Below are positions 10,225 through 24,681 of a stretch of 31,503 nt of DNA, piece after piece. Source of the DNA: a virus; the IMG/VR virus record IMGVR_UViG_3300008217_000041, positions 1 to 31,503 of that record; one strand, 5' to 3'. The position numbers and the translations under genes are program-made. Every line of letters starts with the position of its first letter. Within the stretch, counting starts at the first letter, position 1. The notes under the pieces were generated by a model. The model did not search any database, was not told where the DNA came from, and worked only from the letters and a program-made list of their open reading frames with translations.

Positions 10225-11514
10225 ATGAGAACATTACTTGGTGTAATAATAGCTACTATATTGCTGGTATCAGCCAGTAAAGTATATTCAGATGAACCTA
10301 CATATGTAGATGATGTTGCATCTATTATAAATAATAACTGTGTAGTCTGTCATCGTGAGGGCGGTATAGGCCCAATGAAGTTTGAGAACTATGAGCAGGT
10401 GCGGCCTTGGAGTCCCTTGATACAGTACAAGGTAGCTAACCGTGAGATGCCCCCATACTCATATGATAGTGGGATAGGTATCCAAGAGCTTCACGGAGAT
10501 TGGAGACTCTCTCAAGAGGATATAGATACTGTAGTGGCGTGGGTAAATGGTGGATCGGAGTATGGAGATACAGACAGGGTTGTTCAACCTCCTGATCTCC
10601 CTGATCCTGACCAGTGGAGTTTTTATCAAGACTTTGGAGAACCTACAATAGTCATACCCTCTATAGCTATAGACATTCCAGCAACTGGTAATGATCTGTG
10701 GCACAAACATAATGTTTCTAGCGGTTTGGAGGAGGATCGTTGCATCAAGGCAATCCAAGTTAAGCCAAGAGGCGATGCAAAAAGCGTAGTCCATCACGCT
10801 AACTCCTCAGTCTTTGTAGACGGAGAAAGGTTTGGAATGCTTACTGAATATGCTATGGGCAAATGGGGTGAGATAGTTCCTGATGGTGTGTGTAGAACTA
10901 TACCTGCTAACGCAGAGATAGCTTGGGATATTCATATGTTTCCCGGTGGACTAGGAACTATAGCTCCCGGAACAGTAATAGAAGATAACGTAGTAGAAAT
11001 AGGGATGTGGTTATATAGTCCAGAAGAATCTAAAGAACTAACGTACAAGCAGGACTTGAGCCTATATCGGATCGGAAAACAAGAAGACATTGTTATCCCG
11101 CCCAATAGTACTTACATGACTCAGGGATTCCACAGTTTTGATCACCCAGTTAGGATAGATAGCTGGCAACCACATGGGCATTTGCGTATGAATGCAGCCA
11201 GCTTTGAAATATTTTATCCACAAACAGGAAGGACAGAAGCCATAAGCCAAGTATCTAACTGGAGTGCCACATGGCATCATAGTCATATATATGATCCAGC
11301 AGTTGCGCCCTTGGTTCCAACCGGAGCAGTCTTAGTACTGAAGCAATGGTATGATAACACAGCGAACAACCCTAATAACCCTGATCCAGATCAGTGGGTT
11401 GTTGGTGGAAGCAGAACTGGAGATGAAATGACCCATGCATGGTTAGCAATAACCCATCTCGATGAAGAGAAATACGAAGAACTAACAACGATGAGGATGA
11501 TAGCCGAAAAATGA
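10225..11514 (+). CDS. Secreted cytochrome c / copper type II monooxygenase-like protein
   Basis: This 429-residue protein has a Sec signal peptide (residues 1-22, cleavage near VYS-DE). A small cytochrome c domain follows: CVVCH at 39-43 would bind heme covalently, M75 in REMPPYS is the likely axial ligand, and the domain ends in a DIDTVVAWVNGG helix. The remaining part resembles copper type II ascorbate-dependent monooxygenases. H190-H191 and H237 line up with one copper site, and H317-x-H319 plus M402 (GDEMTHAW) with the second, in the same order as in peptidylglycine hydroxylating monooxygenase. Such fusions occur in free-living bacteria. The product should act in the periplasm and depend on host cytochrome c maturation. 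It sits 1 nt after the endolysin gene and overlaps the lipoprotein gene (ATGA). The substrate is unknown. It looks like an acquired metabolic or envelope gene. Confidence 0.75.
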   Translation: MRTLLGVIIATILLVSASKVYSDEPTYVDDVASIINNNCVVCHREGGIGPMKFENYEQVRPWSPLIQYKVANREMPPYSYDSGIGIQELHGDWRLSQEDIDTVVAWVNGGSEYGDTDRVVQPPDLPDPDQWSFYQDFGEPTIVIPSIAIDIPATGNDLWHKHNVSSGLEEDRCIKAIQVKPRGDAKSVVHHANSSVFVDGERFGMLTEYAMGKWGEIVPDGVCRTIPANAEIAWDIHMFPGGLGTIAPGTVIEDNVVEIGMWLYSPEESKELTYKQDLSLYRIGKQEDIVIPPNSTYMTQGFHSFDHPVRIDSWQPHGHLRMNAASFEIFYPQTGRTEAISQVSNWSATWHHSHIYDPAVAPLVPTGAVLVLKQWYDNTANNPNNPDPDQWVVGGSRTGDEMTHAWLAITHLDEEKYEELTTMRMIAEK

Positions 11515-11702
11515 AGACAGTCTTTGCACTACTTACAGTTGCGTTGACAGGATGTTCTACAAGTGATCTTGTATATTATATAAATGATGTTCCTATCTAC
11601 CCAGAATTTGAATGGGTGGAACCTTTAATATTCCAAGATAATTTAAACACCTGTAGACACCAACCAACTTGTTCTGTAGATCAATTATTTAATAGATACT
11701 AA
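11511..11702 (+). CDS. Small predicted lipoprotein (63 aa)
   Basis: The N-terminus MKTVFALLTVALTGC is a short lipoprotein signal with a lipobox (LTGC). Cleavage would leave a lipidated Cys15 and a mature peptide of 49 residues with two further Cys near the C-terminus. The start overlaps the stop of the copper/heme protein gene by ATGA, so the two are translationally coupled and may act together at the envelope. An alternative is an Rz1-like spanin component, as it follows an endolysin gene, but it is not especially Pro-rich and no Rz partner is visible. Confidence 0.7.
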   Translation: MKTVFALLTVALTGCSTSDLVYYINDVPIYPEFEWVEPLIFQDNLNTCRHQPTCSVDQLFNRY

Positions 11703-11896: not shown

Positions 11897-13054
11897 TTAA
11901 AGAGTAACTATCTTGTCTACTCTCATATTAAATTCATCAGTACCAAAGCCAACATAAATTTCAGCGCCTTTAAATTTAGATAAGTCCAGCCAATTAACTA
12001 CTTTAATATGGTTGTCGTTATCCAACACATAATTTTCTTGTACAGGAACTAAGCCTGATTCTTCTACAGGTAGCCACAAGTCCGGCATGCCACTAACACT
12101 ACCCTCTATACTAGGAACTGGTTGCTTGATATAGACATTACCTTCTGTATCTATCCCTCCCATCCAGACCTTAACAGTCTTACCTATGTCTTCTTTCTCT
12201 GGTACAATCCTAGCCTCAAGCACATATTTACTCTTAAAGTCTACCTTAGAACCAGTAGTCTCTGGCACTTCCATTCCTTTAAAACTTCTAGCTACCCAAG
12301 CTTCAAAGAAAGGCTCACTAACTATACCATAAGGTAATCCACAGTAGCCTCCATCACCCCAAGAAGTTCCCCAACTGTTCTGTACTAAGAATTTCCCTTC
12401 TTTATTATCGTATCCTACGATCAGCATATAGTGTCCACCAAGTCCTGTGTTATCTCTGTCAACTCCTTTATACTTATGTTCTTTCCAAGAACCTTTTAAG
12501 TCTATTAGAGAAGGGGTAATCATCATGGCAAACCCAACCGGCATTCCCTCGTGGAGTGCGGATTTAATAGTATTAACTTTTTTAACACTGTCTATAGTAT
12601 TCCACTGAACTACGTTTTCATACCTATCTATTCTATTATTGAAAGCTTCTCTGTAGTCCTCTTCGGAGGGAGCAATGTTATCTTTAGATATATCATAAGG
12701 GTAGTATTCTTCTGTTGGCATTCCCTGCTTGTAAGCTACATGGTAGGCATCCCTAGTATAAAGCCCTGCTTCCCCTAAACGATCCTCATAAACCTTAGTA
12801 GCGTTATAAAGAAAAAGGCGACTTAAATCTATAGGCTTATCATTCCTATTAGCTATAAGCTCACAGGAACTGGCTACTCCATTTGCCACACAGCTTCCTA
12901 TTGAACCTTGGTTTTCTATTTCGTAAACGTCTTCCCTCATATCTACAGAGCTAGGTAAATCTTCTGGTTTATAAGGAGAGCGATAGGGGATGTCCCTCTG
13001 ATCTGGTATAGAGGGGATTGTGTTTGCTAAAACATATTTAATTTCTTCTGTCAT
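11897..13054 (-). CDS. Papain-family (C1) cysteine protease
   Basis: The product has 385 residues. The papain triad is clear: Q49 and C55 in ENQGSIGSCVANG, H208 in GGHYMLIVGYD, and N226 in VQNSWGTSWG. Residues about 33-255 form the peptidase domain. About 130 further residues, beta-rich by composition, form a C-terminal extension. There is no signal peptide and no clear long pro-peptide, so the enzyme would act in the cytoplasm or after lysis. The start overlaps the previous stop (ATATGA) and GAGGACAT upstream is a good ribosome binding site. It is the last gene of the minus-strand replication block, after nrdB. Its target is unknown: virion maturation, host protein degradation and defence are all possible. 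Confidence 0.85.
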   Translation of the reverse strand: MTEEIKYVLANTIPSIPDQRDIPYRSPYKPEDLPSSVDMREDVYEIENQGSIGSCVANGVASSCELIANRNDKPIDLSRLFLYNATKVYEDRLGEAGLYTRDAYHVAYKQGMPTEEYYPYDISKDNIAPSEEDYREAFNNRIDRYENVVQWNTIDSVKKVNTIKSALHEGMPVGFAMMITPSLIDLKGSWKEHKYKGVDRDNTGLGGHYMLIVGYDNKEGKFLVQNSWGTSWGDGGYCGLPYGIVSEPFFEAWVARSFKGMEVPETTGSKVDFKSKYVLEARIVPEKEDIGKTVKVWMGGIDTEGNVYIKQPVPSIEGSVSGMPDLWLPVEESGLVPVQENYVLDNDNHIKVVNWLDLSKFKGAEIYVGFGTDEFNMRVDKIVTL

Positions 13055-24193: not shown

Positions 24194-24296
24194 CATCTTC
24201 CTCTGTAATTTGATCCAGTAAATTGTTTAATTCCTCGTCATGTTTTTCTATTGTATCCCATATTATATCTAGTGCTTCTAATGTTTCAGGTTCCAT
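24159..24296 (-). CDS. Hypothetical acidic protein (45 aa)
   Basis: The ATG at 24296 follows GAGGAGACAAC, a strong ribosome binding site located in the end of iscU, which it overlaps by 11 nt. The 45-residue product is highly acidic (Glu/Asp-rich) and mostly helical, with no Cys. The tight coupling to iscU suggests co-expression. Its role is unknown. Confidence 0.6.
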   Translation of the reverse strand: MEPETLEALDIIWDTIEKHDEELNNLLDQITEEDDEQLNNIRGIE

Positions 24297-24681
24297 TGTT
24301 GTCTCCTCGTTTATGTTTCACATCCGCTATCGCTGCCTTGATAGCATCTTCCGCCAATACCGAACAGTGAATCTTTACCGGAGGTAATCCTAGTTCATTG
24401 GCAATATCTTTATTTCTTATCTCAGTAGCCTCATCCAAAGAACGCCCCTTGACCCACTCAGTTAGTAATGAACTAGATGCAATCGCTGATCCACAACCAT
24501 AGGTTTTAAACTTTGCATCCTCAATCACGCCATCATCATTCACCTTGATTTGTAAGCGCATCACATCACCACAAGCTGGCGCTCCTACCATACCCGTCCC
24601 AACGTTCGAGTCTTTATCATCCAGCCTACCAACATTGCGTGGGTTCTCATAGTGATCTAAAACTTTGTCTGAATATGCCAT
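24286..24681 (-). CDS. iscU: Iron-sulfur cluster scaffold protein IscU
   Basis: IscU assembles Fe-S clusters and hands them to client proteins. All functional residues are at the positions known in E. coli IscU: C37 and D39 (APACGD), C63 (YGCGSAIASSS), H105 and C106 (KIHC), and the HscA-binding motif LPPVK at 99-103. The 131-residue length is that of the full family. As I recall the E. coli protein, most residues are identical, pointing to recent capture from a gamma- or betaproteobacterium. The gene stands alone, without iscS, iscA or hscBA. AAGGAGAAAGC precedes the ATG. A leader of about 230 nt with stable stems separates it from its promoter. Possible clients are the Cas4/RecB-like nuclease or host enzymes needed during infection. 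Confidence 0.95.
   Translation of the reverse strand: MAYSDKVLDHYENPRNVGRLDDKDSNVGTGMVGAPACGDVMRLQIKVNDDGVIEDAKFKTYGCGSAIASSSLLTEWVKGRSLDEATEIRNKDIANELGLPPVKIHCSVLAEDAIKAAIADVKHKRGDNNGT

Follow-up and report, generated by a model that had tools for sequence, protein, structure and literature searches.

A gene carried by several groups of bacterial viruses encodes a protein in which a c-type cytochrome domain precedes a core with the predicted fold of the copper monooxygenases PHM and DBH. It was analyzed in a 31,503-base IMG/VR virus record (the window, to which all coordinates refer) and is referred to below as the copper gene. The copper gene belongs to genuine phage genomes, as an accessory gene of host origin. 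The explanation that we favor, with a probability of roughly 0.55, is an auxiliary metabolic role: the gene would provide the phage with a heme-copper oxygenase of the periplasm, for which we propose substrate hydroxylation as the reaction. An auxiliary metabolic enzyme is also the role that best fits the cellular family to which the protein belongs.

The copper gene occupies positions 10225..11514 of the plus strand, as do all the features of the protein given below, and encodes 429 amino acids in an uninterrupted reading frame, the reality of which is supported by relatives, an alignment, a tree and dN/dS ratios. Among the phage copies, the median dN/dS is 0.08 and the maximum is 0.14 (227 pairs), which amounts to strong purifying selection. 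Together with the homology described below, this excludes a chance origin of the motifs in this frame. As the original prediction had it, the copper gene lies between an endolysin gene (peptidase M15; PHROG 894, PF08291; 9855..10223, plus strand) and a gene for a small lipoprotein of 63 amino acids (11511..11702, plus strand). Its ATG starts one base past the endolysin stop and its own stop overlaps the lipoprotein start. As the endolysin gene, copper gene and lipoprotein gene of this apparent operon are nearly contiguous and overlapping, they are probably translated together.

The probable Sec signal, the heme site with a likely methionine ligand and the six putative copper ligands in the PHM order (HH, H, HxH, M) that had been predicted were all recovered. 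Residues 1–22 (10225..10290), read by eye and together with a predicted N-terminal helix, look like a Sec signal peptide. They are followed by a monoheme cytochrome c domain at about residues 23–112 (10291..10560), which contains the heme-binding motif C39-V-V-C42-H43 (10339..10353), so that a CxxCH motif is present in a protein with a putative export signal. The motif is invariant both in the 219 family members described below and in a wide alignment of 56 sequences. M75 of an MPP motif (10447..10449), likely the axial heme ligand, is invariant in the same wide alignment. The match to the cytochrome fold was modest overall. In the window protein, the PF13442 and PF00034 matches at residues 29–108 were weak, with scores below the cut-off. 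The domain modeled alone reached a pLDDT of 87.3, and its best VIA alignment was to the monoheme cytochrome PccH (Z 6.7, rmsd 2.0 Å, 76 residues), followed by the hydrazine synthase heme domain (Z 4.9); the Foldseek result for the isolated domain was weak (E 1.2).

An AlphaFold2 model built from the 56-sequence alignment had a mean pLDDT of 86.8 and a pTM of 0.83. In a Foldseek search of the PDB, PHM and DBH entries took the first 31 places (E 7e-12 to 5e-9), with the next match at 4e-5. In VIA-align, PHM scored Z 18.6 over 247 residues at 3.1 Å and DBH Z 18.4, whereas the runners-up were PNGase, the next unrelated fold, at Z 8.5 and capsid proteins at Z 7.7 or less. Structure prediction, one of the checks suggested at the outset, thus came out in favor of the copper monooxygenase fold: the core at about residues 137–413 (10633..11463), comprising CuH and CuM domains, is predicted to have the two-domain PHM/DBH jelly-roll fold.

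Conservation was assessed in 219 sequences, 83 of them viral or phage-like and 136 cellular. C39, C42, H43, H190, H191, H237, H317, H319 and M402 were each invariant in all 219. In DBH, the CuH ligands are His262, His263 and His333, and the CuM ligands are His412, His414 and Met487 (PMC4846438); the six putative ligands of the window protein come in a matching order. The order of H190 and H191 (10792..10797), the putative first CuH ligands, matches that of DBH His262 and His263 (PMC4846438). H237 (10933..10935), the putative third CuH ligand, is also nearly invariant in the wide alignment. In alignments with relatives that PF03712 recognizes, the putative CuM histidines of H317-G-H319 (11173..11181) fall on an HMH motif, and M402 of the DEM motif (11428..11430), the putative CuM methionine, falls on a DEM. 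H351, H352, H354, H404 and H411 are further invariant histidines. The fold match of the model and the invariance of the putative ligands agree with two copper sites.

The Pfam check proposed in the original prediction gave the weak matches described above for the cytochrome c part, and neither the window protein nor any of 21 relatives matched PF01082 or PF03712 in Pfam. Likewise, PHM was out of reach of both phmmer and profile comparisons with the PDB (queries: the protein, A1, A3, A7 and A8), no usable match for the copper protein was found in PHROGs, NCBIfam or INPHARED, and BFVD returned only poor fold matches with a TM of 0.3 or less for the query. The connection to the described family runs through relatives. 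Of eight host genomes searched, each gave a PF03712 match, which in seven exceeded the cut-off, and the relatives that match PF03712 above the cut-off share the heme motif and the ligand motifs with the window family. One such relative, the more distant AhpC/TSA-cytochrome c-PHM protein L160, exceeds the PF03712 cut-off, and an hhalign comparison of the window family with the L160 group gave an E-value of 2.5e-44 over an alignment spanning the heme motif, HH, HxH and DEM. The window protein is filed as a PHM-fold relative outside the described Pfam family; a match to PF01082 or PF03712 marks that family and not the mechanism.

Compared with PHM proper (PF01082/PF03712), the protein has in common the two-domain predicted fold (Z 18.6, 247 residues) and the order of the six copper ligands, but here a heme c domain is fused in front, there is no direct Pfam match, and the bearers are bacterial and viral. 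With DBH it shares the core fold (Z 18.4), the pattern of three CuH histidines and two CuM histidines plus a methionine, and the presence of an extra N-terminal domain. In DBH, however, that domain is a DOMON domain and ascorbate is used, whereas a c-type cytochrome domain takes this place here, and the third CuH histidine follows the paired histidines at a spacing of 46 residues (191 to 237), shorter than the 70 of DBH (263 to 333). The family proper is an uncharacterized, multi-copy cytochrome c/PHM-fold family of the Pseudohongiellaceae, which is 63–75% identical to the window protein and has the same architecture and the same invariant ligands. The phage copies differ from it in forming a clade of their own and in being often accompanied by the lipoprotein, a second fusion protein or a small cytochrome c. 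Viral nirK and norB (PMC8115048) are likewise phage-borne redox metalloenzymes thought to be active in host metabolism, but they differ from the copper protein in enzyme and chemistry. No viral member of a PHM-type family was described in the sequence and structure libraries searched or in the open-access literature, within the limits of sequence sensitivity.

In a scan of viral contigs, 225 viral stretches matched the copper protein, the best 80 of the 225 at 72–87% identity, and the gene order of the window recurred in about 40 contigs, so that viral homologues in the same context, for which a search had been suggested, do exist. The common order is g3 or endolysin, copper gene, lipoprotein or o63b, o75, nrdB, nrdA, endonuclease, exonuclease and polA. 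The window DNA polymerase is nearest (48–50%) to those of the Pelagibacter phages HTVC115P, HTVC103P and HTVC104P, isolates that infect SAR11. HTVC103P-related phages without known hosts have been described from metagenomes (PMC8528129); the words "cytochrome" and "monooxygenase" are absent from the text of PMC8528129. Other carriers are T4-like. In one of them, L042, the copper gene directly follows the major head protein gene (phrog_138), with a portal protein gene and a phage helicase gene close by. A third group of carriers (L024, L028 and L033) has structural genes weakly similar to those of HTVC103P- and CRP-type phages. The carriers belong to several unrelated groups of uncultured bacterial viruses that are probably marine.

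The copper gene is not a fixed part of these genomes. In nrdB-related loci with enough flanking sequence, it was present in 11 of 41 and lacking in 30 of 41, and in L278 and L285 the endolysin gene is directly beside o75 with nothing in between. Because related phages lack it, the copper gene is cargo, in accordance with the earlier remark that redox enzymes of this type are not standard phage genes. The original prediction had missed that it is accessory cargo of several phage lineages, that its apparent source is a single bacterial family in which it is present many times over, and that in some phages it is accompanied by a second fusion protein, by a small cytochrome c and by a lipoprotein that is conserved.

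Downstream of the copper gene, the lipoprotein family recurs in both window-type and T4-like contigs, and it has invariant N, CR, C and F residues. A search of 39 host-family genomes for homologues returned only two weak partial matches. The lipoprotein is virus-specific and a likely partner of the copper protein. Many T4-like contigs furthermore encode a second fusion protein, which shares about 25% identity with the first and has 94 viral relatives. Of 80 loci with this second copy, 75 have the first copy beside it; in the remaining five, the second copy lies near the end of the available sequence. The HxH pair is retained in 26 of 27 second copies. A gene for a separate small cytochrome c, recognized by Pfam, is found just before the second copy at 14 loci in about 12 contigs, which supports the proposed cytochrome-mediated electron delivery.

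Several other observations concern the surroundings of the gene. Among the T4-like contigs L042–L080, some have TATAAATA upstream of the copper gene, often at -38, and others have TTGC...TTTAAAT, which resembles a sigma-70 promoter; these differing motifs mean that the timing of expression may differ between phages. The window contains a gene for a papain-family C1 cysteine peptidase (11897-13054, minus strand; PF00112, E 4e-21), which is variable even among syntenic phages. The peptidase was dropped as a candidate partner of the copper gene, a relative being encoded in just 8 viral stretches. A NifU/IscU-like Fe-S assembly gene is located at 24286-24681 (minus strand) of the window, a 78% identical copy of it directly follows the copper gene in L057 (9244-9627), and an IscA-like gene is apparently downstream in L053 and L073. 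Near the end of the window contig (28718-28828 and 30776-31005), there are tandem repeats of short period, with 10-bp units and with a GC-rich unit of 49 bp; they may be genuine or may stem from assembly.

In the tree, a single clade (SH-aLRT 94), nested among the cellular sequences beside copies from the gammaproteobacterial MAGs L084 and L094, unites the viral sequences with the contigs L082 and L083. A cellular origin of L082 and L083 was rejected. The 335-kb L082, labeled Neomarinimicrobiota, falls in the viral clade and carries a clamp loader gene of phage type together with genes that appear to encode a spanin and an endolysin. These neighbors mark L082 as a phage contig; with phage replication and lysis genes present, a binning error is likely. 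The 6.7-kb L083, labeled Flavobacteriales, has its copper-gene copy in the viral clade and is probably a phage contig. Close relatives were found in 32 of 59 sampled genomes of the family of the Pseudohongiella genome G003, with 1–17 matches per genome, in 4 of 146 sampled genomes of the order and in 1 of 185 sampled genomes of the class; no close copies outside the Pseudohongiellaceae were found in the sampled order or class. As far as the sequences go, the viral gene was apparently taken from this one family rich in copies, and the origin of the gene, which is the sole basis here, suggests the Pseudohongiellaceae as the host family of these uncultured phage groups, although the isolated phages closest in DNA polymerase infect SAR11. 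Two genomes of this family, G003 and G248, have 16 and 17 matches, respectively, some in tandem arrays, which is an unusual expansion of an uncharacterized family. Next to the host arrays lie genes for an MFS transporter, which is closest to the monocarboxylate types, and for a secreted protein, a paralogue of redoxin type and a regulator. Many host arrays also encode, on the opposite strand, a large paralogue from which the HxH pair has disappeared (RMN motif in 22 of 28).

Two explanations rival that of an auxiliary metabolic enzyme. The enzyme might oxidize a host surface component or a secreted compound late in infection, with the help of the lipoprotein, resulting in superinfection exclusion or an altered envelope. 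Such envelope modification, raised in the original prediction, is possible but in our estimate unlikely. It accords with the putative export signal, the operon position with the endolysin, the co-conserved virus-specific lipoprotein and the possible late expression in those T4-like contigs that have TATAAATA upstream of the gene, but other T4-like copies have no late promoter motif, and the cellular relatives are multi-copy, have a transporter gene close by and are not obviously envelope-modifying. Somewhat more doubtful is a protective role, in which the protein would make no product and would shield the infected cell by taking up electrons, consuming O2 or binding copper. The heme, the two putative copper sites and the five additional invariant histidines would suit this role, as would the small cytochrome c of some phages and the Fe-S assembly genes of some, the window phage included. 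However, both putative copper sites are fully conserved down to the CuM methionine, which argues for catalysis, and no gene of the neighborhood points to copper handling.

That the protein is a virion component, as had also been entertained, or a structural one built on a double jelly-roll fold is very improbable. Beyond a weak resemblance in Foldseek to capsid proteins of the double jelly-roll type, which PHM and DBH far surpass in the structural alignments, we found nothing in its favor, and the putative export signal, the invariant putative metal ligands and the nesting within a cellular protein family speak otherwise. The possibility that would have undone the prediction altogether, namely that the segment is misassembled or transduced host DNA and no phage gene, has practically no probability left. 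The high similarity to cellular genes would be expected from it, but it is refuted by the recurrence of the gene in the same order in about 40 contigs and in several phage types, as well as by the separate viral clade and the purifying selection.

If the copper protein is an auxiliary metabolic enzyme, as we favor, it would be exported by Sec and loaded with heme by the cytochrome c maturation system of the host. Electrons from the host respiratory chain would enter the heme domain, in place of ascorbate, and pass from heme c to CuH, and CuM would activate O2 and hydroxylate a C–H bond of a small periplasmic substrate. The lipoprotein may anchor or assist the copper protein. In infected cells, an oxidation run by a host family with many copies of the enzyme would thereby be kept up or extended, and it would feed carbon or energy to phage production. 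Against this explanation stand the negative PF01082/PF03712 result for the window protein, the PDB sequence searches that stopped short of PHM, the shorter spacing to the third CuH histidine and the modest fold match of the cytochrome domain. We give even odds to the broader proposal that in phages of several lineages a fused or separate c-type cytochrome, and not ascorbate, drives a PHM-type dicopper hydroxylase, which would make this protein the first of that enzyme class in a virus and its cytochrome a new scheme of electron delivery.

The PHM/DBH-type copper fold is otherwise known from animal enzymes that make hormones and neurotransmitters. If our reading is true, the cytochrome fusion would explain, in a way that can be tested, the electron supply of bacterial PHM-type enzymes, and the substrate of the gene, once found, would reveal what the virus gains. 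Furthermore, viruses would then intervene in oxidative metabolism in the periplasm of one bacterial family, by means of an enzyme class best known from animals.
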